The translations under genes were made by a program, and so were the position numbers. A stretch of DNA of 13,846 nt, taken from NCBI GenBank assembly GCA_018667995.1, contig JABIQT010000954.1, positions 1 to 13,846 of the forward strand, in the 5' to 3' direction. Below, piece after piece: positions 1,322-13,846 of this stretch. The notes under the pieces were generated by a model that did no database searches, was not told the DNA's origin, and saw only the letters and a list, made by a program, of their open reading frames with translations. Origin of the DNA: Candidatus Latescibacterota bacterium. Its GTDB lineage: Bacteria > JAAXHH01 > JABIQT01. Each line of letters opens with the position of its first letter. Position 1 is the first letter of the stretch.

Positions 1322-4300
1322 ATGCTCAGTCTATATGCGCACCGTAGTGCCCGGAAGGATCTGTCCCGACGGGCTGAAAAAGCGCTGGTTCGAAAAGTCA
1401 AAACCAACTGGCTCGGTTCCCGTAAGGGCCTGAAACAGATTGTCCGCCGTGACGGTGGCACACTTCGCGGGCACCTGAGCTCCTTCGCCCGCACCGTGGC
1501 CACCACGCTGTTTCTGCTGCAAATGTATATTGTGGATGTGGAGGCGGCGAATACCACGCTGTCCATTGCTGAGGGCGTGACGAATCCCTTCGGATTGACG
1601 CAAGTACTTGTAGGTTGTACAGGACCAGCATTTGCAGATATGGACGGGGACGGCGATCAGGATATGTTAACGCTGGATGATATTGGCACATGGTATTATT
1701 TCGAAAATACAGGCGGAACGGGAATTTCCTCATTTGGCCAGCCTGTGATTAATCCGTTTGACCTGCCCGTTACGGAAAAAGGGAGGCCGGCACTTGCAGA
1801 CCTGGACGGGGATGGAAATCCGGAAATCATCATCTCGGGTACGTCAGGCATCTTACGGATCTTTCAGAGTTTCGAACTGGAAGGCGATATTCTCTTTGAG
1901 GAACTTACAGGCGAACTAAACCCGTTCAATGATTTCAATAATCTGTCAACTGGAGTTCAAGAACCCACCTTTGTAGATATCGATTGTGATGGCGACCTGG
2001 ATATGGTTGGTATCGATGGCGGCGGCCTAGTTTACGTCGAGAATTCGGACAATGGATTTGTTGAAGTAACTGGTCCAGAAAATGTATTTCAAGGCTTGGA
2101 TATTTTGCCCGGGGACACACCGTCGTTTGCAGATGTGGACCAGGATGGCGACCTGGATATGATATTGGAGGAGGCGGACGGAGCTACCCGGTATTTTGAG
2201 AATACGGGGAGTTCGCATGATGCGGTTTTTACCCAACGGTTCGGTGCGGAAAATCCCTTTACGGTACTGACCGAAGATGGGAACAGCAGGCGGGTAACGT
2301 TCGTAGACATTGACAACGACGGCGACCTGGACGGGCTTAGCGGTAGTGATAGCGGCGATTTTCGTTTCTACGAAAATACTACCCTACAACGTTTCGGGGA
2401 GCAAATAGGTAACCCCTTCAACTTCCCCAATGTTGGTTTTGCTTCCGCACCGACATATGGTGATTTAGATGGCGATGGTGACCTCGACTCCGTCGTCGGC
2501 AGCGGCAATGGTGAACTAAGGTATATGGAGCATATTGGTACAAAAACGGATCCGTCGTATGTTGAGCGTACGGGAACCTCCAACCCGCTTAATGGTATAG
2601 ACGTGGGAGATATCAGCAATCCGACTTTATTTGATATAGACGGAGACGGCGATCTGGATGTATTCGTCGGCGAGCGTTTCGGTCCTGTCTTTTATATCGA
2701 GAATATCGGTACATCTACCAATGATGTATTTGGTGCCCCGGTCACAGGGGCATTCAATATTACCGCTTCGGTTGAAAATGGGAGTCTGACGTTTGGCGAC
2801 ATAAATAACGATGGTAGGGTCGACATGGCTGCTGGAACCGGTTTCGGTGATTTCTTGTTTTTCATCAACACAAGCAGTTCGAACATTCCAGTTTTTGCTG
2901 ACCCCATTGAGAATCCTTTCCACCTGAGTAATATCGGTGATTTTGAGAATAAATTTGTTCTGATTGACATCAACGAGGATGGGCTACTGGACATCCTCGG
3001 TAGCATGCTCAGCGGGGATTTCTACCACAACATAAATGTCGGTTCCCTGGAAGATCCACTATACAACAAGATCGTTACCAATCCATCGGGGTTAACAAAC
3101 GTCGGCAACTTCCCCCAATTCGGACTTGCAGACTTCGATGGTGATGGTGACAAAGACATCGGTGGTGGGTTAGGCAACGGTGGTTCTTTTGTGATTTTCG
3201 ATGAAACCACACCTATTTCGATCTCAATCGATGATGTCACCATCAATGAAGGTTTTGATAATGAGGGGGGAGGGGTCGGGGCCGTTTTCTTCACCCTAAC
3301 CCTATCGGAACCGTCTGATGAAGACATCAGTGTCGATTTTGATACGTTCGACGTGACGGCCACTGACGGTGAGGATTATGAACGCGAAAACCTCAGAGTG
3401 ACAATTCCGGCGGGTAATACCCAACTCCAGGTGGGCGTAGTCATTTACGATGACGACTCGCGGGAAGACGGCGAGACGTTTAACGCCAACCTTTCCAATC
3501 CTGAGAATGCCATTCTTGGCACGAAGCATCAGGGCACATGTACGATTCAGGATGACGACGGGCCTGCGTTGATATTCCGAGATAGTTTTGCCGAACCGGG
3601 CGGCGAGTGCGATATAGTCGTCGATTTGAGGGCGCCCGATGTGACCGGACTCCAGTGCGATCTGATTCCTCAGATTGACGGCATACCGACAGATAAGATT
3701 ACATTTGTCGGCCCCCTCAATACACTGGGGAACAACGGTTACACTCTGAGCACTTCCATTGTCGTATTGCCCCCCTCCCGGGCACTTACTCCTGCGACAA
3801 CATTAGCCGCCAACCCCCGAGTGCTTCTATTTAGCAATACCAATGAGAAAATCGATCTCAACGAAGACGGATTGCGGGGTATTTTCAGTCTAATATACCA
3901 TATCGACGAATCCGTACCGCCCGGAACCGTCATCGATCTAGTTGTATCGAACAATATCCTGTCGAATACAGGTAGCGAAGCTATTGAGCATGATGTCATT
4001 GCTGGTCAGATCATCGTCGGTGTGAAGGGGGACTTGGGCAGCGGCGCCGGACCGCTGGGTGCCGGAGACGGCGATATCAATGTGCTGGATATCGTCAAGC
4101 AGATCAGCATCATTCTGGGCATACTGCCCATGCCCGAGTCGGAATCGTTTGCACATTATGTCGCCGATATGAACAGTGATGGTGTCATCAATGTGCAGGA
4201 TATCGTAGCTATGGTCAATGCCATACTGGGACCACCAACTGCGAAGACCACCGCAGGTGCACCGGCCCGAAACGCTACGGTGCACCTGGGCGCGGCACAG

Positions 4301-4954
4301 GCGATTGGCGATGGCCAACTTGCGATTCCTGTTCGCCTGGATGCCGATGGCATGGTGGCGGGATTAGAGGCTTCGTTTATTTTCGATCCGTCTTCTATGA
4401 CTATCGGCGAACCATATATAGCTGATCGTACCACCCACGTGAAGCTGGCGAGTCATACGAACGGCGGCTTCCTGCGGCTGGTGGCCTACAGCCTCACCGG
4501 CGAACAACTGCCTGCGGGTGAAGACGTGACGATGTGGATTCCGGTCACGCTCGAAGAAAACGGTCAGGGCAGTGCAGTGTTAGAGTTGGCAGATGCAATA
4601 CTGGCAGATCGTAACGCGCAGTCAGTGCATACAATTCTGGGCAACAGCTCTACGACGGTAAAGTCGATTCCCGTAGCCTTCTCCCTGAAACCCAACGCAC
4701 CGAATCCATTCAATCCGAGCACATCTATCGGGTACGAAGTGCCGCGGCAGACGCACATCACCCTGACCATCTACAACCTGCTCGGCCAGGAAGTCGCGCG
4801 ACTGATGGACCGAGTCCAGCCCGCGGGTCGTCATAGCGTCGTATGGAATGCCCGGAATTCATACGGGGTACCGGTCTCCTCGGGTGTCTACCTGTACCGC
4901 CTGTCTACGGGCACAGGTCAGAGCGAAAGCCGACGCATGATGCTGCTGAAATAA
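1322..4954 (+). CDS. Large secreted FG-GAP/VCBS repeat protein with Calx-beta, cohesin-like, dockerin-like and T9SS sorting domains
   Basis: The 1210-residue start at ATG 1322 is supported by GGAGG at 1310-1314, seven bases upstream. A basic N-terminus of about 57 residues precedes a hydrophobic stretch (about 59-71) and a likely signal peptidase site near VEA-A (75-76); such a long n-region is unusual. Residues about 85-625 hold ten repeats of about 50-65 residues, each with an NPF-like element and a calcium-loop motif such as DLDGDGDLD, followed by an aromatic strand often ending in ENTG. This is the FG-GAP/VCBS beta-propeller pattern. A Calx-beta domain (about 633-747) ends in DDDG. A cohesin-like beta domain follows (about 748-900), then dockerin-like loops (D916-D923 and D949-D960), a second cohesin-like domain (about 982-1116) and a type A T9SS sorting domain (about 1118-1210, with PNPFNPST). 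Export by Sec and then T9SS to the cell surface or medium is inferred. Binding partner or substrate is unknown; no catalytic domain is visible. Confidence 0.93.
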   Translation: MLSLYAHRSARKDLSRRAEKALVRKVKTNWLGSRKGLKQIVRRDGGTLRGHLSSFARTVATTLFLLQMYIVDVEAANTTLSIAEGVTNPFGLTQVLVGCTGPAFADMDGDGDQDMLTLDDIGTWYYFENTGGTGISSFGQPVINPFDLPVTEKGRPALADLDGDGNPEIIISGTSGILRIFQSFELEGDILFEELTGELNPFNDFNNLSTGVQEPTFVDIDCDGDLDMVGIDGGGLVYVENSDNGFVEVTGPENVFQGLDILPGDTPSFADVDQDGDLDMILEEADGATRYFENTGSSHDAVFTQRFGAENPFTVLTEDGNSRRVTFVDIDNDGDLDGLSGSDSGDFRFYENTTLQRFGEQIGNPFNFPNVGFASAPTYGDLDGDGDLDSVVGSGNGELRYMEHIGTKTDPSYVERTGTSNPLNGIDVGDISNPTLFDIDGDGDLDVFVGERFGPVFYIENIGTSTNDVFGAPVTGAFNITASVENGSLTFGDINNDGRVDMAAGTGFGDFLFFINTSSSNIPVFADPIENPFHLSNIGDFENKFVLIDINEDGLLDILGSMLSGDFYHNINVGSLEDPLYNKIVTNPSGLTNVGNFPQFGLADFDGDGDKDIGGGLGNGGSFVIFDETTPISISIDDVTINEGFDNEGGGVGAVFFTLTLSEPSDEDISVDFDTFDVTATDGEDYERENLRVTIPAGNTQLQVGVVIYDDDSREDGETFNANLSNPENAILGTKHQGTCTIQDDDGPALIFRDSFAEPGGECDIVVDLRAPDVTGLQCDLIPQIDGIPTDKITFVGPLNTLGNNGYTLSTSIVVLPPSRALTPATTLAANPRVLLFSNTNEKIDLNEDGLRGIFSLIYHIDESVPPGTVIDLVVSNNILSNTGSEAIEHDVIAGQIIVGVKGDLGSGAGPLGAGDGDINVLDIVKQISIILGILPMPESESFAHYVADMNSDGVINVQDIVAMVNAILGPPTAKTTAGAPARNATVHLGAAQAIGDGQLAIPVRLDADGMVAGLEASFIFDPSSMTIGEPYIADRTTHVKLASHTNGGFLRLVAYSLTGEQLPAGEDVTMWIPVTLEENGQGSAVLELADAILADRNAQSVHTILGNSSTTVKSIPVAFSLKPNAPNPFNPSTSIGYEVPRQTHITLTIYNLLGQEVARLMDRVQPAGRHSVVWNARNSYGVPVSSGVYLYRLSTGTGQSESRRMMLLK

Positions 4955-6049: not shown

Positions 6050-6070
6050 CTGTCCCCGAAGGGTTGACAG
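6050..6070. promoter_or_regulatory. Inverted repeat overlapping the rnf -35 box
   Basis: CTGTC (6050-6054) and GACAG (6066-6070) are reverse complements, and inside them CCC (6055-6057) pairs with GGG (6061-6063) around GAA. The right arm overlaps the TTGACA box at 6064-6069. A protein bound here would compete with RNA polymerase, so a repressor site is possible. The arms are short and part of the symmetry may simply come from the TTGACA itself. Confidence 0.3.
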
Positions 6071-6093
6071 ATAATCTATTCAACCTATATAAT
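6064..6093 (+). promoter_or_regulatory. Consensus sigma-70-type promoter of the rnf-nifJ operon
   Basis: TTGACA at 6064-6069 and TATAAT at 6088-6093 both match the housekeeping consensus perfectly, with an 18-base spacer. Transcription should start near 6100, giving a leader of about 120 bases before rnfB. It is the only promoter of this quality that I see in the window, and it sits directly upstream of the operon in the right direction. A full-consensus promoter implies strong, possibly constitutive expression unless the nearby palindromes bind repressors. Confidence 0.8.
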
Positions 6094-6169: not shown

Positions 6170-6223
6170 ATGTCAGTCCATTTCCCGCTGGTCTTTACTC
6201 ATCCAATCAGGAGCCAGGATTGA
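6170..6223 (+). CDS. Short upstream leader frame, 17 residues, coupled to rnfB
   Basis: ATG 6170 is preceded by a strong ribosome site, AGGAG at 6158-6162, with a 7-base spacer. The frame encodes MSVHFPLVFTHPIRSQD and stops at TGA 6221-6223. That stop overlaps the TTG start codon of rnfB (6220-6222), and the rnfB ribosome site (6209-6213) lies inside the frame. Ribosomes finishing here could restart on rnfB, so translational coupling is plausible. The peptide has no run of one amino acid such as in biosynthetic attenuators. It may be a genuine leader peptide or an accident next to a good ribosome site. Confidence 0.4.
   Translation: MSVHFPLVFTHPIRSQD
6209..6213 (+). promoter_or_regulatory. 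Ribosome binding site that fixes the TTG start of rnfB
   Basis: AGGAG ends six bases before TTG 6220. No ATG or GTG lies in frame at a suitable place upstream, and the next in-frame ATG (residue 19) would cut off half of the membrane helix. The TTG is therefore the best start. Confidence 0.7.
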
Positions 6224-7143
6224 GTGAACTGATCTTATGGATAGGATCGAATCTGGCTGGCGCCCTTGTTTTTATGGGGGGACTGGGTCTTGTGCTAGCT
6301 GGTGTGCTTGCAGTGGCTAACCGCAAACTCCATGTGGCGGAAGATCCCAGGATTGATGAAGTCGAGGAGATGCTGCCCAAGGCTAATTGCGGGGCCTGCG
6401 GATTTCCGGGTTGTCGCCCCTTTGCCGAGTCGTGTGTGTCTGGAGCCTCTAATCCAGGCGGGTGCACGGTGAATTCAACTGATATGTCCCAGTTCATTGC
6501 CGAATTCCTGGGCGTTGAACTGGGAGAAGAGGCGAAACGTGTCGCACGTCTGGCCTGCGCGGGAGGCACGCACGTCGCCCGAATGCGTGCGCAATACACC
6601 GGATTGAAATCGTGCCAGGCCGCGGTGGTCACAGGCGGAGGGGGCAAGGCTTGCTCGTGGGGTTGCCTGGGTCTGGCGGACTGCGAGGTCTCGTGTGATT
6701 TCGACGCCATTCGGATGAACCGTTACGGCCTGCCCGAAGTCAGCGAAGAAAAATGTGTCGCCTGCAACGATTGTGTGGAAGCCTGCCCGCTTGATCTGTT
6801 TTCGCTCCAACCGGTCAATAACCGGCTGTGGGTAGCCTGCAAAAGCCTCGCTGAAGGCGATGAAGCACTCGAAGACTGTGAGGTGGCTTGTACGGCCTGC
6901 GGGCGATGCGCTGCCGATGCTCCGGAGGGATTAATTACCATGGTGAACAACCTGGCAGTCATCGACTATGCGAGGAACAATCTGGCTACAAGATTGCCCA
7001 TCCAGCGGTGTCCGACAGGCGCTATTGTCTGGCTGGAAGGCGAGCAAGCGGACAAGGGCTTGGCCGCAAAGAAAATCATTAGAAAGGATCCTTTGCCCGT
7101 TGGGCTGGATCCTGATCCGACCCATCTCAACTCTTCCCCATAA
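6220..7143 (+). CDS. rnfB: Rnf complex subunit B, iron-sulfur protein, long form with one degenerate cluster site
   Basis: RnfB brings electrons from reduced ferredoxin into the membrane-bound Rnf complex. The 307-residue product starts with a membrane helix (about 4-33). The family-typical cluster follows, with C57, C60, C65 and C82 in ANCGACGFPGC. A ferredoxin pair comes next: CSWGCLGLADCEVSC (C145, C149, C155, C159) and C179, C182, C185, C189 in CVACNDCVEACP. A second pair is degenerate: CTACGRCAADAP keeps C224, C227 and C230 but has Ala234 where the fourth cysteine belongs. The last motif keeps only C264, with N254, T257 and P260 at the other three places. In ferredoxin folds, C224/C227/C230 plus C264 would form one complete cluster, so only the partner cluster is lost. 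The tail after about 275 is charged and proline-rich. It is the first gene of the operon, with a TTG start supported by AGGAG. The family is certain; the cluster count is inferred. Confidence 0.95.
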   Translation: MSELILWIGSNLAGALVFMGGLGLVLAGVLAVANRKLHVAEDPRIDEVEEMLPKANCGACGFPGCRPFAESCVSGASNPGGCTVNSTDMSQFIAEFLGVELGEEAKRVARLACAGGTHVARMRAQYTGLKSCQAAVVTGGGGKACSWGCLGLADCEVSCDFDAIRMNRYGLPEVSEEKCVACNDCVEACPLDLFSLQPVNNRLWVACKSLAEGDEALEDCEVACTACGRCAADAPEGLITMVNNLAVIDYARNNLATRLPIQRCPTGAIVWLEGEQADKGLAAKKIIRKDPLPVGLDPDPTHLNSSP

Positions 7144-7164
7144 ACCAATAATAGGTTCCATGTT

Positions 7165-10100
7165 ATGCCTGCTAAAAACGAACAAGTGAAATATCCAGGG
7201 GTCCTGATGGCCATGGATGGTAATACCGCTGTCATCATGTGCGAGCGGGAATCGACCGACTCGGCTGGTGCCTATCCCATTACGCCGTCCACCCAGATGG
7301 GTGAGTACTGGGCTGAGGAAACCGCCAATGGGCATATCAATATCGCCGGGCATCCATTGATCTTTATTGAGCCGGAAGGCGAACACGCGGCAGCCGGAGT
7401 TACGGCAGGGATGTCCATGAGTGGTCTCCGGGCGTCTAACTTCTCTTCCGGGCAGGGAATCGCCTACATGCACGAATCGCTCTACGGTGCCGTAGGTAAG
7501 CGCCTGCCCTATATCTTGAACATGGGTTGCCGTGCCATTACCAAGACAACTCTAAACGTTCATGCCGGGCACGACGACTACCACCTCATGGACGATACGG
7601 GTTTCTTTCAGGTGATGGGGAAGAATGCGCAGGAGGCGGCAGATCTCAACATCATTGGGAGAAAAGTTGCCGAGCTATCCCTGACACCGGGAGTGGTAGG
7701 CCAGGATGGCTTCCTGACCACCCATCTCATCGAAACCCTCCTTATTCCTGAACGTGAACTCATCGCCGAATTCCTGGGGCGAGCCGATGATCTGATCGAA
7801 TGCCCCACCCCCGCGCAGAAGATCATCTACGGAGAAAAAAGACGGCGTATCCCCGTACTCTGGGATGTGGACAACCCGGTGCTTTCGGGTGCGGTTCAGA
7901 ATCAGGATTCTTACATGCAGTCGGTAGCAGCTCAGCGTCCCTTTTTCTTTGAGCATATTGCCCGGATTACTGATCAGTGCATGGCGGAGTATCACGAACT
8001 GACCGGCCGCTCCTATTCCCGGGTGTCTGCCTACCGGACTGAGGATGCCGACTACCTGGTCATCGGACAAGGCAGCGTCATCAGCACCGCGGAAGCCGTG
8101 GCAGACTACATGCGTGAAAAACACGGCATCAAGGTGGGTGTATTGAACATGACCATGTACCGTCCGTTCCCGGGTGACATGCTCTCCCACCTCATCAAAG
8201 GTCGCAAAGGCATAGCCGTACTGGAGAGAACAGACCAGCCCCTGTCCGAAGATCTGCCTCTTATTCGAGAGATCCGCGCTACCGTGAGTAAGAGTATGGA
8301 AAACGGACTGTCCGCCAGGGGCACGGAAACTCCCTATCCTGAGTATGCCAGCTTTAAGGACGCCAAGGACGTGCCCCCTTTATATTCCGGCTGTTTTGGG
8401 TTGGGAAGCCGCGACCTGCAGCCAGAAGGTGTTGTCGGAGCCATCGAAAACATGCTCGCCGATGGTCCCCGGAAGAAATTCTTCTACCTATCGATCGACT
8501 TCCTGCACGACAAGCCCGCGACACCCAAGAACGAGATCTATCAGCAACAGCTGGCGGAATCCTACCCCAAGGTCAAGGACCTTGCCGTAAAGGGCAGCGA
8601 GAATCCTAACCTTCTGCCCAAGGGTGCGATTACCGTGCGGATGCATTCGGTTGGAGGGTGGGGAGCCATTACGACAGGCAAGAACCTTGCTATCACGCTG
8701 TACGACCTGCTGGGTTACGATATTAAGGCTAATCCCAAGTACGGCTCCGAAAAGAAAGGCCAGCCTACCACCTATTACCTGTCAGCGGCTCCTGAGCCCA
8801 TTCGTATAAATTGCGAGTATACCTTTGTCGATGCGGTGCTTTCGCCGGATCCCAATGTCTTCAGCCACTCAAATCCTCTGTCCGGCCTCCAGGACGGAGG
8901 TTCCTTCGTCATTCAGAGCGATCTTGAGACGGCGGATGAAGTGTGGAGATCCTTCCCCATGGTGGCTCAGAAATACATCCTCAGCAAGGGGATTAGAGTG
9001 TTTTTTCTGGACGCCTTCAAAATTGCCAGAGAGGAGGCCTCCGATCCCGAACTGCAGTTCAGGATGCAGGGAATCGCCTTCCAGGGGGCTTTCTTTGCCG
9101 GATCGTCTCTCATGGCCAAGTCCGATTTCACCGAGGAATCTTTATTTAAGGCTATTCGTGATCAAGTGGAAAAGAAATTCAGCAGCAAGGGCGCGCGGGT
9201 GGTCGAAGACAACATGCGGGTGGTCAGGCGAGGCTATGATGAAATCACAGAGATCACGGAACAGAAGGTCGTGACTTCTGGTGAGAGCAAGGCCAGAAGT
9301 GAAACCAATCTTCCCATCATGCTCAAGCGTATTCCTGCCAGTGACGATCGCAGGACGGATATTCACCGTTTCTGGGAACAGACCGGCAGTTTCTACCTTG
9401 GTGGTAAACCCAACGACAACCTGGCTGATCCTTTCAACGCTTTGAGCCTGATCCCTGCCAATACCGGGTTATACCGCGACATGACTCAGATCCGTTTCAG
9501 CCATCCCGTTTGGGATCCTGAGAAATGCACCGCATGCAGTGACTGCTTTACCGTTTGCCCGGACAGCGCCATACCCGGCCTGGCCAGCACCATTTCGGAC
9601 GCCCTCAATACCGCGGTCAAGCGGGTCAGACGTGCCGGGCACGAAGTCAAACTGCTGCCCCGGGCGATTCGGGCGGTAGAAAAAAAGCTTCGCAGCGCTG
9701 TGATCCCCGGAGAAACCAATAGCATCGACGCCGGACCGCTCCTGAATCAGGCAATTGCCGATACCATTTCTGAAGAAGACGATGACCGGGAAGCACTTAA
9801 ACAGGAGTTTGAATGGTTTGTCCAGGCTATGGGGGAGTTCAAATTTGCCCTGACCAAGCCTTACTACGATCAACGGGAGAAGAAGGAAGCTGGGTCCGGT
9901 GGACTCTATGCCATCACGGTTAACCCCTATACGTGCAAAGGGTGTATGCTTTGCGTCGAAGTCTGTGAAGATGAGGCTTTGACCGTGATGGACCAGACTA
10001 CCGATTCCGTAAAACAGCTAAAAACGGAATGGGATTTTTGGCTGGATCTCCCCACTACTCCTCCTGATTTCATCCGAATCGATGACCTCGACGAAAAGAT

Positions 10101-12090
10101 TGGTGCGTTGGAAACCATGCTGATGGACAAGTCGGTTTATCAGTCAATGTCCTGCGGTGACGGCGCCTGCACCGGTTGTGGGGAAAAGTCGATGCTTCAC
10201 ATTTTTACCGGAACCATCACCGCCCTCATGCAGAGACGGGTGAAGAAACACGTGGAATACCTCTCGGATCTCATCCAGAGGATGGAAGATCACATCAAGA
10301 CAGAGCTGGCGGGCACCCTGGATTTGAGCGATTCCTCCGCGATTCAGAAAGCGGTCGAAACGCATCAGGATAAGGACCTCAGATTCTCTGAACTGGCCAG
10401 GACATTGGACGGCGGTGAGGCCGGTGAGCCCCTGGATCAGGAGTGGCTATCCTGGGTGACCGATTTGCTGTCCAGGCTGAAAGATCTGAAATGGCGTTAT
10501 GAAGAGGGACCGACAAAGAACGGGAGGGCCAAACTCGGCTTTATCAATTCAACCGGATGTTCGTCCGTCTACGGTTCCACCTTCCCCTTCAATCCCTATC
10601 CTTTCCCATGGTCCAACCACTTGTTTCAGGACGCACCTTCGGTCTCATTGGGGCTGTTTGAAGGACATATGCGCTCCATGGGAGAAGGATTCAAGGCGAT
10701 CCGGCTGGCCGAATCCGAACTGGCTGGGACAGAGAACTTCCAGAAAGCGGAAGCGTCGTTGCAGTACTTCGACTGGAAGAAGTTTACGGATGAAGAGTAC
10801 CTGCTGTGCCCGCCTGTCGTCGCGGTAGGGGGCGACGGGGCGATGTTTGACATTGGCTTTCAGAATGTCTCACGCGCGCTCATGACCGGCCGGCCCGTTA
10901 AGATATTTGTTCTTGATACGCAGGTTTACTCCAATACCGGCGGGCAGGCCTGCACATCAGGGTTTGTCGGACAAGTTTCCGACATGGCCCCTTATGGTTC
11001 CGTGTGGAAGGGGAAGACGGAGATTCGCAAGGAAATGAGTCTCATCGGAGCGGCCCACCGTACGGCGTTTATTCTTCAGGGCAATCTGGCCAATTACACC
11101 CATCTCATTGAAGGGTTCATCGACGGACTCAATACCCGGCGTCCTGCACTTTTCACGGTATATTCCGTCTGTCAACCCGAGCACGGAGTTCCCGATAACT
11201 CCACCGAATTACGCAGTAAAATGGCTCTTGAAGGTCGGGCCTACCCCGTATTGCGCTTTGATCCGGATGCCGGAAAGACCTGGGAAGAATGCCTAGACCT
11301 CGACGGCAATCCTTCGCTGGATACGGATTGGCCGGTCTACCAACTGGAATACGTCGACGAAGACGGAAACAGCCAGCACATGGAGTTACCCATGACTTTC
11401 GCCGATTTTGCGATCCAGGAGGGGCGTTTTCGGAAACACTTCCGGATGGTCCCGCGGGATGCCTGGAACGAAAACATGGTGCCCCTGGCAGAGCTGATTC
11501 AAATGGAAGGCGATGATCGGGAGGATTTATTCCCCTTCATCTGGGCAGTCGATAAGAAAAACAGGCTGGCCCGTGTTCTCGTTTCGGAGGAAATGGTTCG
11601 ATCCAGTGAAGAGCGGCTGGGCTTCTGGAATACCCTTAGATCCCTGGCCGGACTCACTGACAAGGTGGATCCGGAGGCCATTGCCCAGCAGGTGCGCAGT
11701 GAGACGGCCCAGAAGCTGGCCGCAGGCCTCATGGGACTTCTTGCGGGAGAGGGTAACAGCGATGCATTGCTGGACCTGGCCGAAACACAGCCGTCCGAAG
11801 GCGGGTCACCTACCGAATCTCAAACCGGCGAAAGTTATGAACCTTGCTGGATTGACCAGACCGAGTGTACCTCGTGCGACGAGTGCGTTAACATCAATCC
11901 CAAAATCTTTGCGTACGACGAGCACAAAAAAGCCTTCGTCAAAGATGCCAAAGGCGGGGCCTTCAAAGACATCGTCCGAGCAGCCGAAAAATGCACTGGC
12001 CGGTGCATTCATCCGGGAACCCCTCTCAATAAGAGTGAAAAGGGGTTGGATAAGTTGATCAAACGGGCTGAACAGTACCAGTCACAATAA
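7165..12090 (+). CDS. nifJ: Giant pyruvate:ferredoxin oxidoreductase-type enzyme with fused C-terminal ferredoxin domain
   Basis: PFOR uses thiamine diphosphate to oxidise pyruvate (or another 2-oxoacid) with CoA to acyl-CoA and CO2, reducing ferredoxin. Order of domains: N-terminal domain with YPITPS (T40) and Arg123 in GCRAI, the places of the catalytic Thr and Arg of known PFORs; domain II (about 296-373); gamma domain with MHSVGGWGAITTGKN (about 488-653); an EKR-like segment (about 656-700); two cluster motifs (C788, C791, C794, C798 and C924, C927, C930, C934); and the thiamine-binding domain (C1002, C1005, C1132, GDGAMFDIGFQN from 1223, N1257 in SNTGGQ, C1336). It is 1641 residues against about 1200 for the usual enzyme. 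The excess is an insertion between the cluster motifs, one of about 100 residues between C1005 and C1132, and a C-terminal ferredoxin-like domain (C1568, C1571, C1574, and C1610 or C1614) after a flexible linker. It lies 21 bases after rnfB and 16 before rnfC. PFOR type is secure; substrate is not proven. Confidence 0.93.
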   Translation: MPAKNEQVKYPGVLMAMDGNTAVIMCERESTDSAGAYPITPSTQMGEYWAEETANGHINIAGHPLIFIEPEGEHAAAGVTAGMSMSGLRASNFSSGQGIAYMHESLYGAVGKRLPYILNMGCRAITKTTLNVHAGHDDYHLMDDTGFFQVMGKNAQEAADLNIIGRKVAELSLTPGVVGQDGFLTTHLIETLLIPERELIAEFLGRADDLIECPTPAQKIIYGEKRRRIPVLWDVDNPVLSGAVQNQDSYMQSVAAQRPFFFEHIARITDQCMAEYHELTGRSYSRVSAYRTEDADYLVIGQGSVISTAEAVADYMREKHGIKVGVLNMTMYRPFPGDMLSHLIKGRKGIAVLERTDQPLSEDLPLIREIRATVSKSMENGLSARGTETPYPEYASFKDAKDVPPLYSGCFGLGSRDLQPEGVVGAIENMLADGPRKKFFYLSIDFLHDKPATPKNEIYQQQLAESYPKVKDLAVKGSENPNLLPKGAITVRMHSVGGWGAITTGKNLAITLYDLLGYDIKANPKYGSEKKGQPTTYYLSAAPEPIRINCEYTFVDAVLSPDPNVFSHSNPLSGLQDGGSFVIQSDLETADEVWRSFPMVAQKYILSKGIRVFFLDAFKIAREEASDPELQFRMQGIAFQGAFFAGSSLMAKSDFTEESLFKAIRDQVEKKFSSKGARVVEDNMRVVRRGYDEITEITEQKVVTSGESKARSETNLPIMLKRIPASDDRRTDIHRFWEQTGSFYLGGKPNDNLADPFNALSLIPANTGLYRDMTQIRFSHPVWDPEKCTACSDCFTVCPDSAIPGLASTISDALNTAVKRVRRAGHEVKLLPRAIRAVEKKLRSAVIPGETNSIDAGPLLNQAIADTISEEDDDREALKQEFEWFVQAMGEFKFALTKPYYDQREKKEAGSGGLYAITVNPYTCKGCMLCVEVCEDEALTVMDQTTDSVKQLKTEWDFWLDLPTTPPDFIRIDDLDEKIGALETMLMDKSVYQSMSCGDGACTGCGEKSMLHIFTGTITALMQRRVKKHVEYLSDLIQRMEDHIKTELAGTLDLSDSSAIQKAVETHQDKDLRFSELARTLDGGEAGEPLDQEWLSWVTDLLSRLKDLKWRYEEGPTKNGRAKLGFINSTGCSSVYGSTFPFNPYPFPWSNHLFQDAPSVSLGLFEGHMRSMGEGFKAIRLAESELAGTENFQKAEASLQYFDWKKFTDEEYLLCPPVVAVGGDGAMFDIGFQNVSRALMTGRPVKIFVLDTQVYSNTGGQACTSGFVGQVSDMAPYGSVWKGKTEIRKEMSLIGAAHRTAFILQGNLANYTHLIEGFIDGLNTRRPALFTVYSVCQPEHGVPDNSTELRSKMALEGRAYPVLRFDPDAGKTWEECLDLDGNPSLDTDWPVYQLEYVDEDGNSQHMELPMTFADFAIQEGRFRKHFRMVPRDAWNENMVPLAELIQMEGDDREDLFPFIWAVDKKNRLARVLVSEEMVRSSEERLGFWNTLRSLAGLTDKVDPEAIAQQVRSETAQKLAAGLMGLLAGEGNSDALLDLAETQPSEGGSPTESQTGESYEPCWIDQTECTSCDECVNINPKIFAYDEHKKAFVKDAKGGAFKDIVRAAEKCTGRCIHPGTPLNKSEKGLDKLIKRAEQYQSQ

Positions 12091-12106
12091 CTCAAAAGTA
12101 CCTGAC

Positions 12107-13477
12107 ATGATTAATGGACTCCATCGCCTCTTCGATACCGATCGCTGGTTTCGCCGTACGTTTTCACACGGAATTCATCCGACCGAAAACAAGCATTTCA
12201 CGGCAGACAAACCGATTCAGCGCTTCCCCTTTGCGCCGGAGCTGGTCCTTCCGCTTTCCCAGCACGCCGGAGCACCCTCGGAACCCCTGGTGCATCTGGG
12301 ACAGGAGGTTTTGCGCGGCGAGCCCATTGCCAAAGCGGCCGGGTTTATGTCCGTTCCCCAGCACGCCCCCGCAACGGGTGTGATCAAGAAGATCGAGCTC
12401 ATGCCGACAAGCAAAGGGCCTCGGACGCTCTCGATCATTTTGGAGGTCTACCCCGGTGACAGCCAGGAAGTGCGCTACGCTCAAGAGAGGGATGTGGACG
12501 CCATGTCACCGCAGGAGATTGTTCAGGCCGTGCAGGATACCGGTCTGGTGGGACTGGGAGGTGCCGCATTTCCTACCCATGTCAAACTCTCCCCTCCCAA
12601 GGGTCATAGCGTGCATACGGTCATTATCAACGGATGTGAATGCGAACCGTTTTTGACCACCGATCACCGGGTCATGCTGGAACAGACCGATGACCTGATT
12701 CTGGGAACCCGGATATTAATGAAGGCTCTGGGAGCGAAAAATGCCATTATCGGCACTGAGGACAATAAGCCCGATGCCGTGGAAGCATTGAAGGCTAAAC
12801 TCCCGGAGGACGGCTCCATCAGCGTGGAAATGGTTAGAACCAAGTATCCTCAAGGCGCCGAGAAGATGATGGCTAAATCCCTGCTGGGAGTGGAAATCCC
12901 CTCAGGCGGATATCCTTCCTCGGTTGGGCTTGCCGTATTCAATGTCTCCTCCACGGCACAGTTGGGCAGCCTGCTTCCCCAAAGCAGGGGGGTGATCGAG
13001 CGGGTAGTGACCATTACAGGGCCGGGAGTAAGTAAACCAGGCAACTATACAGTGGCCATCGGAACCCCGATTCGCTTTCTCCTGGATGAACTGGGCTTCC
13101 GTGGAAATGCTCAGCACCTGATTCTTGGCGGCCCCATGATGGGCGGAACGGTTTCCTCCCTGGACGTCCCGATTACCAAGGGGTGCGGGGGTGTTCTGGT
13201 CCTGACCGAGAAAGAAATGCAGGGCCAAACGGCTTCTGCCGCCTATCCCTGCATCAATTGCGGCAAATGTGTCGAGACCTGTCCCATGCACTTGAACCCC
13301 TGTCACCTGGGCAAACTGGCCTACAAGCATCGTTATGAAGAGATGGCCGATGCCTTCCAACTAAACGACTGTTTTGAATGCGGTTGCTGCAGCTATGTGT
13401 GTCCATCAGGGATTCCTCTGGTTCAGTACTTCCGTATTTCCAAGGCATCCAACAGGGAGAAGGCCAAAGCGTCATGA
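12107..13477 (+). CDS. rnfC: Rnf complex subunit C, NADH/FMN-binding iron-sulfur protein
   Basis: RnfC is the peripheral subunit that passes electrons to NAD+. The 456-residue product carries HGIHPTENK and VLPLSQHAGAP near the start, and a barrel-sandwich-like segment (QHAPATGVIKKIE). The glycine-rich nucleotide-binding motif GLVGLGGAAFPTHVKL begins about residue 146, and INGCECEPFLTTDHR follows. Two ferredoxin motifs close the protein: CINCGKCVETCP (C382, C385, C388, C392) and CFECGCCSYVCPSG (C422, C425, C428, C432). All eight cysteines of the two clusters are present, in contrast to RnfB. The length is typical of short RnfC forms without the long C-terminal extension of gamma-proteobacteria. 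The start at ATG 12107 gives an N-terminus about 15 residues longer than I expect before the conserved GIHP motif, and its ribosome site is weak. Its stop overlaps the start of rnfD (ATGA), a sign of translational coupling. Confidence 0.96.
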   Translation: MINGLHRLFDTDRWFRRTFSHGIHPTENKHFTADKPIQRFPFAPELVLPLSQHAGAPSEPLVHLGQEVLRGEPIAKAAGFMSVPQHAPATGVIKKIELMPTSKGPRTLSIILEVYPGDSQEVRYAQERDVDAMSPQEIVQAVQDTGLVGLGGAAFPTHVKLSPPKGHSVHTVIINGCECEPFLTTDHRVMLEQTDDLILGTRILMKALGAKNAIIGTEDNKPDAVEALKAKLPEDGSISVEMVRTKYPQGAEKMMAKSLLGVEIPSGGYPSSVGLAVFNVSSTAQLGSLLPQSRGVIERVVTITGPGVSKPGNYTVAIGTPIRFLLDELGFRGNAQHLILGGPMMGGTVSSLDVPITKGCGGVLVLTEKEMQGQTASAAYPCINCGKCVETCPMHLNPCHLGKLAYKHRYEEMADAFQLNDCFECGCCSYVCPSGIPLVQYFRISKASNREKAKAS

Positions 13478-13846
13478 ACCATCAGGATCTCCACGTCCAT
13501 CTGCGTACCTCGCCTCATTTGAGGGAGAGTCCTGCAGTAGATGTCATCATGCAGAATGTGGTTTATGCCCTTCTGCCTGTCTGTGCTTATGCCGTATATC
13601 AGTTCGGGATCAGTGTCCTGTCACTGCTTCTCGTCTGTACCGGCGCCGGTGTGCTGACCGAACACCTCATCTGCATACTTTCAGCCAAGGAGTCGACGGT
13701 CAAGGACTGGAGTGCCGTCATCACCGGGATCTTACTTGCGCTTACCTTGCCGCCCGGGTTTCCCCTCTGGATGGGGGCGGTAGCCGCGGTTGTGGGCATC
13801 GGGATCGCCAAAATGTTCTTTGGTGGATTGGGGTATAATATCATGA
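13474..13846 (+). CDS. rnfD: Rnf complex subunit D, N-terminal part, truncated by the window end
   Basis: The frame starts at ATG 13474 inside the rnfC stop (ATGA) and stays open for 124 codons to the last base. RnfD is an integral membrane subunit that carries a covalently bound flavin and belongs to the ion-translocating part of Rnf/NQR complexes. Visible family marks are LRTSPHLRESPAVDVIMQNV at the start, membrane helices with YALLPVCAYAVYQFGISVL and following segments, the motif DWSAVITGILLALTLPPGFP, and KMFFGGLGYNIM. In complete homologues NPAL follows that last motif. The flavin-attachment threonine lies further downstream and is not in the window. rnfG, rnfE and rnfA would be expected next, but this cannot be seen here. 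Confidence 0.94.
   Translation, partial: MNHQDLHVHLRTSPHLRESPAVDVIMQNVVYALLPVCAYAVYQFGISVLSLLLVCTGAGVLTEHLICILSAKESTVKDWSAVITGILLALTLPPGFPLWMGAVAAVVGIGIAKMFFGGLGYNIM

Follow-up and report, generated by a model that had tools for sequence, protein, structure and literature searches.

A PFOR-type gene with a fused ferredoxin domain inside an rnf operon, and its relatives across bacterial phyla

Introduction

Why does a gene for a ferredoxin-reducing enzyme lie inside the operon for an ion pump that oxidises ferredoxin, and might the two products work as one unit? The Rnf complex is usually pictured as being fed from the soluble ferredoxin pool. The initial annotation of the locus considered here, in which a PFOR-type gene sits between rnfB and rnfC, took the arrangement to be unusual and proposed a direct unit from 2-oxoacid to ion gradient, perhaps without free ferredoxin.

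Results

Gene order of the locus

The window, the whole stretch of 13,846 nucleotides that was analysed, is one complete contig (C237) of a MAG from Candidatus Latescibacterota (G000; 6.06 Mb in 1165 contigs, 85% complete). The ORF list and family scans place rnfB, a PFOR-type gene, rnfC and rnfD in this order on the plus strand, with the following features.

6064-6093, plus strand: promoter-like site of the sigma-70 type, TTGACA-N18-TATAAT; 12 of 12 consensus positions, pattern match only
6220-7143, plus strand: rnfB, TTG start; N-terminal transmembrane helix, FeS domain and C-terminal multi-[4Fe-4S] domain (family scans)
7165-12090, plus strand: long PFOR-type 2-oxoacid:ferredoxin oxidoreductase, 1641 residues (POR_N, PFOR_II, POR, Fer4, TPP_enzyme_C)
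9577-9909, plus strand: PFOR insert 1 (residues 805-915), between two ferredoxin-like cluster motifs (length comparison)
10210-10530, plus strand: PFOR insert 2 (residues 1016-1122), long helices (length comparison; helices in the AlphaFold2 model)
11725-11844, plus strand: variable disordered linker (residues 1521-1560); 11% mean identity, variable length, pLDDT 30-39
11845-12087, plus strand: C-terminal [4Fe-4S] ferredoxin domain (residues 1561-1641; Cys 1568, 1571, 1574 and 1610; Fer4_13)
12107-13477, plus strand: rnfC; SLBB, FMN/NADH-binding fold, GxGGxxFP motif
13474-13846, plus strand: rnfD, N-terminal 124 residues, cut by the contig end (PF03116, 4e-35)

The gaps are 21 bases between rnfB and the PFOR gene and 16 bases between the PFOR gene and rnfC, and rnfC and rnfD overlap by 4 bases (ATGA), in agreement with the order and spacing first reported. 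Chance or mis-annotation of the gene order is ruled out, since all the genes score with their own families and the order recurs in relatives. The strong promoter proposed before rnfB fares less clearly: a perfect -10/-35 pair with a spacer of 18 bases is present, but it is a pattern match in a region whose total of promoter-like sites is not above that of shuffled sequence. Farther upstream lie genes for a thioredoxin-fold protein (932-1282; PF00085) and, after it, a secreted protein of 1210 residues (1322-4954), in which FG-GAP/VCBS-like repeats, Calx-beta-like and dockerin-like stretches and a C-terminal FlgD-Ig-like sorting region were recognised by eye only.

RnfB belongs to its family by TIGR01944 (83.9 against a cut-off of 68.7) and has RnfB 7zc6_B as its best PDB match (E 4e-50), and RnfC does so by TIGR01945 (493 bits against a cut-off of 246). 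The remainder of the operon was found on a second contig of the same genome, C1013, which when read in reverse carries the C-terminus of rnfD followed by rnfG, rnfE, rnfA and genes for an FNR and ApbE. There rnfD resumes about 20 codons beyond the end of C237, and we infer that the two contigs join. RnfE and RnfA score over their cut-offs and RnfG just below its own (97 against 102 bits), and all six Rnf subunits are present in the source genome; the full operon is most likely rnfB-PFOR-rnfCDGEA-fnr-apbE. The FNR is related to PetH-type ferredoxin-NADP reductases, and the occurrence of such a gene in many of these operons suggests a possible branch of ferredoxin electrons to NADP(H). As in the Rnf complexes of C. 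tetanomorphum (7zc6), T. maritima and A. woodii, RnfB, C, D, G, E and A are all recognisable and the RnfC motif is intact (GxGGxxFP occurs in all 72 linked relatives); unlike those complexes, the present one has a B-first gene order with a PFOR gene inserted and an RnfC of a separate clade.

The PFOR-type protein

At 1641 residues the window PFOR is ~400 residues longer than the PFORs of known structure, and the extra length consists of two inserts, the variable linker and the C-terminal domain. All five Pfam domains score over their cut-offs in the full PFOR domain order, and the POR_N, PFOR_II, POR, 2[4Fe-4S] and TPP domains retain their ligands, which places the protein in the 2-oxoacid:ferredoxin oxidoreductase superfamily. 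It aligns with the homodimeric PFORs of Moorella (6cin) and D. africanus (1b0p) and shares with them the domain order and the TPP and cluster ligands. Across the 80 full-length sequences not one of the 12 core cluster cysteines varies (80 of 80), and the YPIT motif, the EPxxEH glutamates, the arginine of the CRA motif and YSNTGGQ are equally constant, as are the motifs of T40, R123 and N1257 (80 of 80).

Unlike 6cin and 1b0p, the window PFOR carries two inserts of ~80-100 residues and a fused ferredoxin, and near the substrate arginine GHDDYHLMDD replaces the canonical GDHxDxMxxR. Insert 1 is ~110 residues long in all long PFORs assessed, compared with ~31 residues in canonical PFORs, and insert 2 spans 86-115 residues in long PFORs, compared with 5 in canonical ones. 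With TIGR02176 the protein scores 382.7 bits, far below the cut-off of 911.35; we therefore neither file it as an equivalog of that family nor regard its activity on pyruvate as proven.

A ferredoxin domain fused to the PFOR C-terminus

The C-terminal domain has the family score (Fer4_13, 31.7 against a cut-off of 24.5 bits), the fold and the four cysteine ligands of a single [4Fe-4S] ferredoxin. It matches D. africanus ferredoxin I (E 7e-11), with 41% identity in the aligned region, and its model superimposes on 1fxr with a TM score of 0.86 on the target and an rmsd of 0.7 Å. In the AlphaFold2 run, made on residues 765-1641, it forms a separate domain (pLDDT ~79-89) behind the linker (30-39). 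D. africanus ferredoxin I is a free protein, whereas here the ferredoxin is a domain of the PFOR polypeptide: the PFOR C-terminus has the anatomy of a tethered ferredoxin. We found no description of a fused ferredoxin on an rnf-linked PFOR in the open-access literature searched.

The tail is present in 81 of 81 rnf-linked PFORs examined and also in G132 (locus L124), and its four cysteines are invariant in all 80 full-length rnf-linked sequences. Six long PFORs encoded outside rnf loci (L122, L125, L127, L129, L130 and L132) lack a third cluster motif; these tail-less proteins contain both inserts wherever these could be assessed. In five genomes whose long PFOR lies away from any rnf locus (G095, G040, G125, G046 and G063), RnfC gave no match. 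One of the six (L122; C599, 8237-12229, minus strand) is a second long PFOR of the source genome itself and is not beside rnf genes. When the tail columns are left out of the PFOR tree, a single change is enough to divide the linked from the unlinked long PFORs, a result of modest weight given its long branches.

The tie between the tail and Rnf is strong, not absolute, because of two sets of exceptions. In three genomes (G120, G089 and G068) the rnf-linked PFOR itself has no tail; a distinct POR-like gene carries it, placed immediately before rnfB and close to korAB-type genes. In a fourth, G024, a tail-bearing POR half gene lies beside korAB-type genes and no Rnf was found, which rules out a strict rule that the tail occurs only with Rnf.

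POR-like genes (769-1470 residues) ending in the same ferredoxin tail occur at L126:16164-18473, L128:5989-10401, L133:12120-14651 and L134:6930-9281. Each is near 2-oxoacid oxidoreductase alpha/beta-type genes and, except at L134, lies directly upstream of rnfB; they may encode another 2-oxoacid oxidoreductase, a second one connected to Rnf.

Distribution of the arrangement

A scan of genome contigs with the PFOR as query returned at least 80 loci at 60-77% identity, most of them from MAGs. Among the matches listed, rnfB precedes the PFOR gene in 70 of 71 loci with at least 1 kb of upstream sequence, and rnfC follows it in all 67 loci with at least 2.5 kb downstream. Likewise among the matches listed, D, G and A are present in 49-51 of 51 long loci and an FNR, by our cut-off, in 27 of 51. 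Because almost every relative tested shows it again, the order is far beyond chance. The sole relative with 10 kb of upstream sequence yet no rnfB before the PFOR gene is L051:1-10000, in which rnfC and rnfD follow as usual. The hosts belong to Verrucomicrobiota, Kiritimatiellota, Acidobacteria, Hydrogenedentota, KSB1, SAR324 and many Gamma- and Betaproteobacteria, and among the matches listed many are respiring sulfur oxidisers or Rhodocyclaceae.

The novelty assumed for the order in the initial annotation is thereby lost: a search of genomes shows it to be common across phyla, and a PFOR gene or genes between rnfB2 and rnfC2 had been noted in 2014 in the rnf2 locus of the Solemya velum symbiont (PMC4287430), so an order unique to the source organism is ruled out. 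As there, the gene here lies between rnfB and rnfC of an rnfBCDGEA operon. The accessible part of the Solemya account, which proposes pyruvate as electron donor to Rnf, does not mention a fused ferredoxin, a dedicated clade or a spread across phyla (PMC4287430).

Among 143 genomes sampled across phyla, RnfC was detected in 58 at E < 1e-60 and a PFOR gene inside the rnf locus in 6 of these 58, which rules out PFOR as a frequent member of usual rnf operons; the other RnfC genomes checked have mostly rnfCDGEAB, with no PFOR gene adjoining rnfC. The initial annotation gave the usual operons as rnfCDGEAB or rnfABCDGE, lacking a 2-oxoacid oxidoreductase; this list leaves out rnfBCDGEA, an order that Bacteroidetes and Chlorobi are known to have (PMC3534657, PMC4014512) and that is found in a form lacking PFOR in Caldithrix (Cabys_3129-3134; PMC5317091). 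The order described here is rnfBCDGEA plus PFOR.

Shared inheritance of PFOR and Rnf subunits

In an RnfC tree made by a quick method with SH-aLRT support and no bootstrap, the 77 PFOR-linked sequences, divergent lineages included, fall on one side of a branch (SH-aLRT 99) and 53 sequences without PFOR on the other. Moreover, the pairwise distances among PFORs are correlated with the distances among RnfC, RnfB and RnfD proteins (Mantel r 0.83, 0.79 and 0.72, respectively) as strongly as the Rnf subunits correlate among themselves (r 0.71-0.83; RnfC-RnfB 0.83), so that PFOR, judged by sequence distances, behaves as a lasting part of this Rnf lineage.

In the window RnfB, cluster II of the terminal dicluster is gone (residues 220-264): C4-C7 are replaced and C8 is kept, in contrast to 7zc6 RnfB, which has this last [4Fe-4S] cluster. 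The same loss relative to 7zc6 is found in 72 of 72 PFOR-linked RnfB sequences and in 5 of 19 from loci without PFOR. It is therefore ruled out as a unique mark of PFOR-linked Rnf and is suggestive at most as a sign of the lineage.

Discussion

The reading that we favour, and hold to be somewhat better than an even bet, is that PFOR and Rnf form a dedicated unit, with the tethered ferredoxin as the electron carrier between PFOR and RnfB. PFOR would reversibly oxidise a 2-oxoacid (pyruvate or a relative) and pass the electrons through its internal clusters to the ferredoxin domain that a flexible linker attaches to its C-terminus. This domain would dock on the cytoplasmic cluster domain of RnfB, described in PMC12174285 as the entry point of soluble ferredoxins into Rnf. 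Electrons would then reach NAD+ at RnfC with pumping of Na+ or H+, and the operon's FNR could divert the same electrons to NADP+ as a side branch. In the forward direction the unit would conserve energy as 2-oxoacids are oxidised; in the reverse direction NADH and the ion gradient would be spent on forming pyruvate from acetyl-CoA.

PFOR thus drawn probably gives electrons to Rnf, or takes them from it, without a free carrier protein, and we infer that the tail is the physical carrier to RnfB, that one complex forms and that flow in the source organism is forward. The proposal of a dedicated unit from 2-oxoacid to ion gradient gains from the conservation across phyla, the single RnfC clade, the parallel divergence with RnfB, C and D and the fusion of a ferredoxin to PFOR, and it loses the novelty of the order; the sequences make coupling more credible through a tethered ferredoxin and a dedicated Rnf lineage. 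These two elements are what the present analysis adds to a gene order already known and common. Tentatively, we put forward a fuller picture: PFOR and Rnf would form a stable supercomplex, a redox ion pump that is driven by 2-oxoacids (or synthesises pyruvate) and has the tethered ferredoxin in place of the free carrier, and this supercomplex would have spread vertically and horizontally across many phyla.

A serious rival, to which we give slightly less than an even chance, is that the unit runs mainly backwards, NADH and the ion gradient driving electrons through Rnf and the tethered ferredoxin to a PFOR that acts as pyruvate synthase (acetyl-CoA and CO2 to pyruvate), for example on storage polymers or acetate. 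The many respiring sulfur oxidisers and Rhodocyclaceae among the hosts favour it, as do a haem-copper oxidase in the source genome and the lack of any FeFe-hydrogenase match there. Kiritimatiellota and Opitutales, however, are generally regarded as fermenters, for which the forward direction pays, and nothing in the sequence fixes a direction. In sulfur-oxidising Kentron symbionts PFOR is highly expressed, and PFOR-based carboxylation of acetyl-CoA during PHA use has been proposed (PMC6593406); Rnf is reversible according to PMC12174285.

We regard as unlikely that PFOR and Rnf share an operon for co-regulation only, through a common ferredoxin pool, with the tail raising the local ferredoxin concentration and passing electrons to soluble carriers or the FNR. 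Soluble ferredoxins are indeed the usual partners of both enzymes, the FNR accompanies about half of the long loci among the matches listed and G024 has a tail without Rnf, but the tight co-inheritance of PFOR and Rnf across phyla in one clade argues for the dedicated unit, as does the confinement of tail-less PFORs to non-rnf loci, split-gene lineages apart.

RnfC scores over its cut-off in only 1 of 16 genomes of the source phylum, namely the source genome, and the nearest relatives among the matches listed are from Verrucomicrobia MAGs (75-78% identity). The single RnfC occurrence points to horizontal gain of the operon by the source organism or, less likely, to a contaminant contig. That the contig came from another organism, such as a Verrucomicrobium, fits both observations but is improbable given a GC content of 0.53 and a tetranucleotide correlation of 0.84, which fall near the bottom of the range of the genome's own contigs but inside it, and the presence of the operon's other half in the same assembly, and it would leave the nature of the operon unchanged.

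If the dedicated unit is real, many sulfur oxidisers, Rhodocyclaceae, Acidobacteria and PVC bacteria would have their 2-oxoacid metabolism connected straight to an ion pump. Hosts in culture (Thiocapsa, Allochromatium, Sedimenticola, Thiothrix and Kiritimatiellota) offer systems for asking about the channelling of low-potential electrons, and for asking whether the respiring bacteria concerned use PFOR to oxidise pyruvate or to make it. In Sedimenticola hydrogenitrophicus a peroxiredoxin gene of the Redoxin family lies between the PFOR gene and rnfC (L059:14926-15432), perhaps for oxygen protection.
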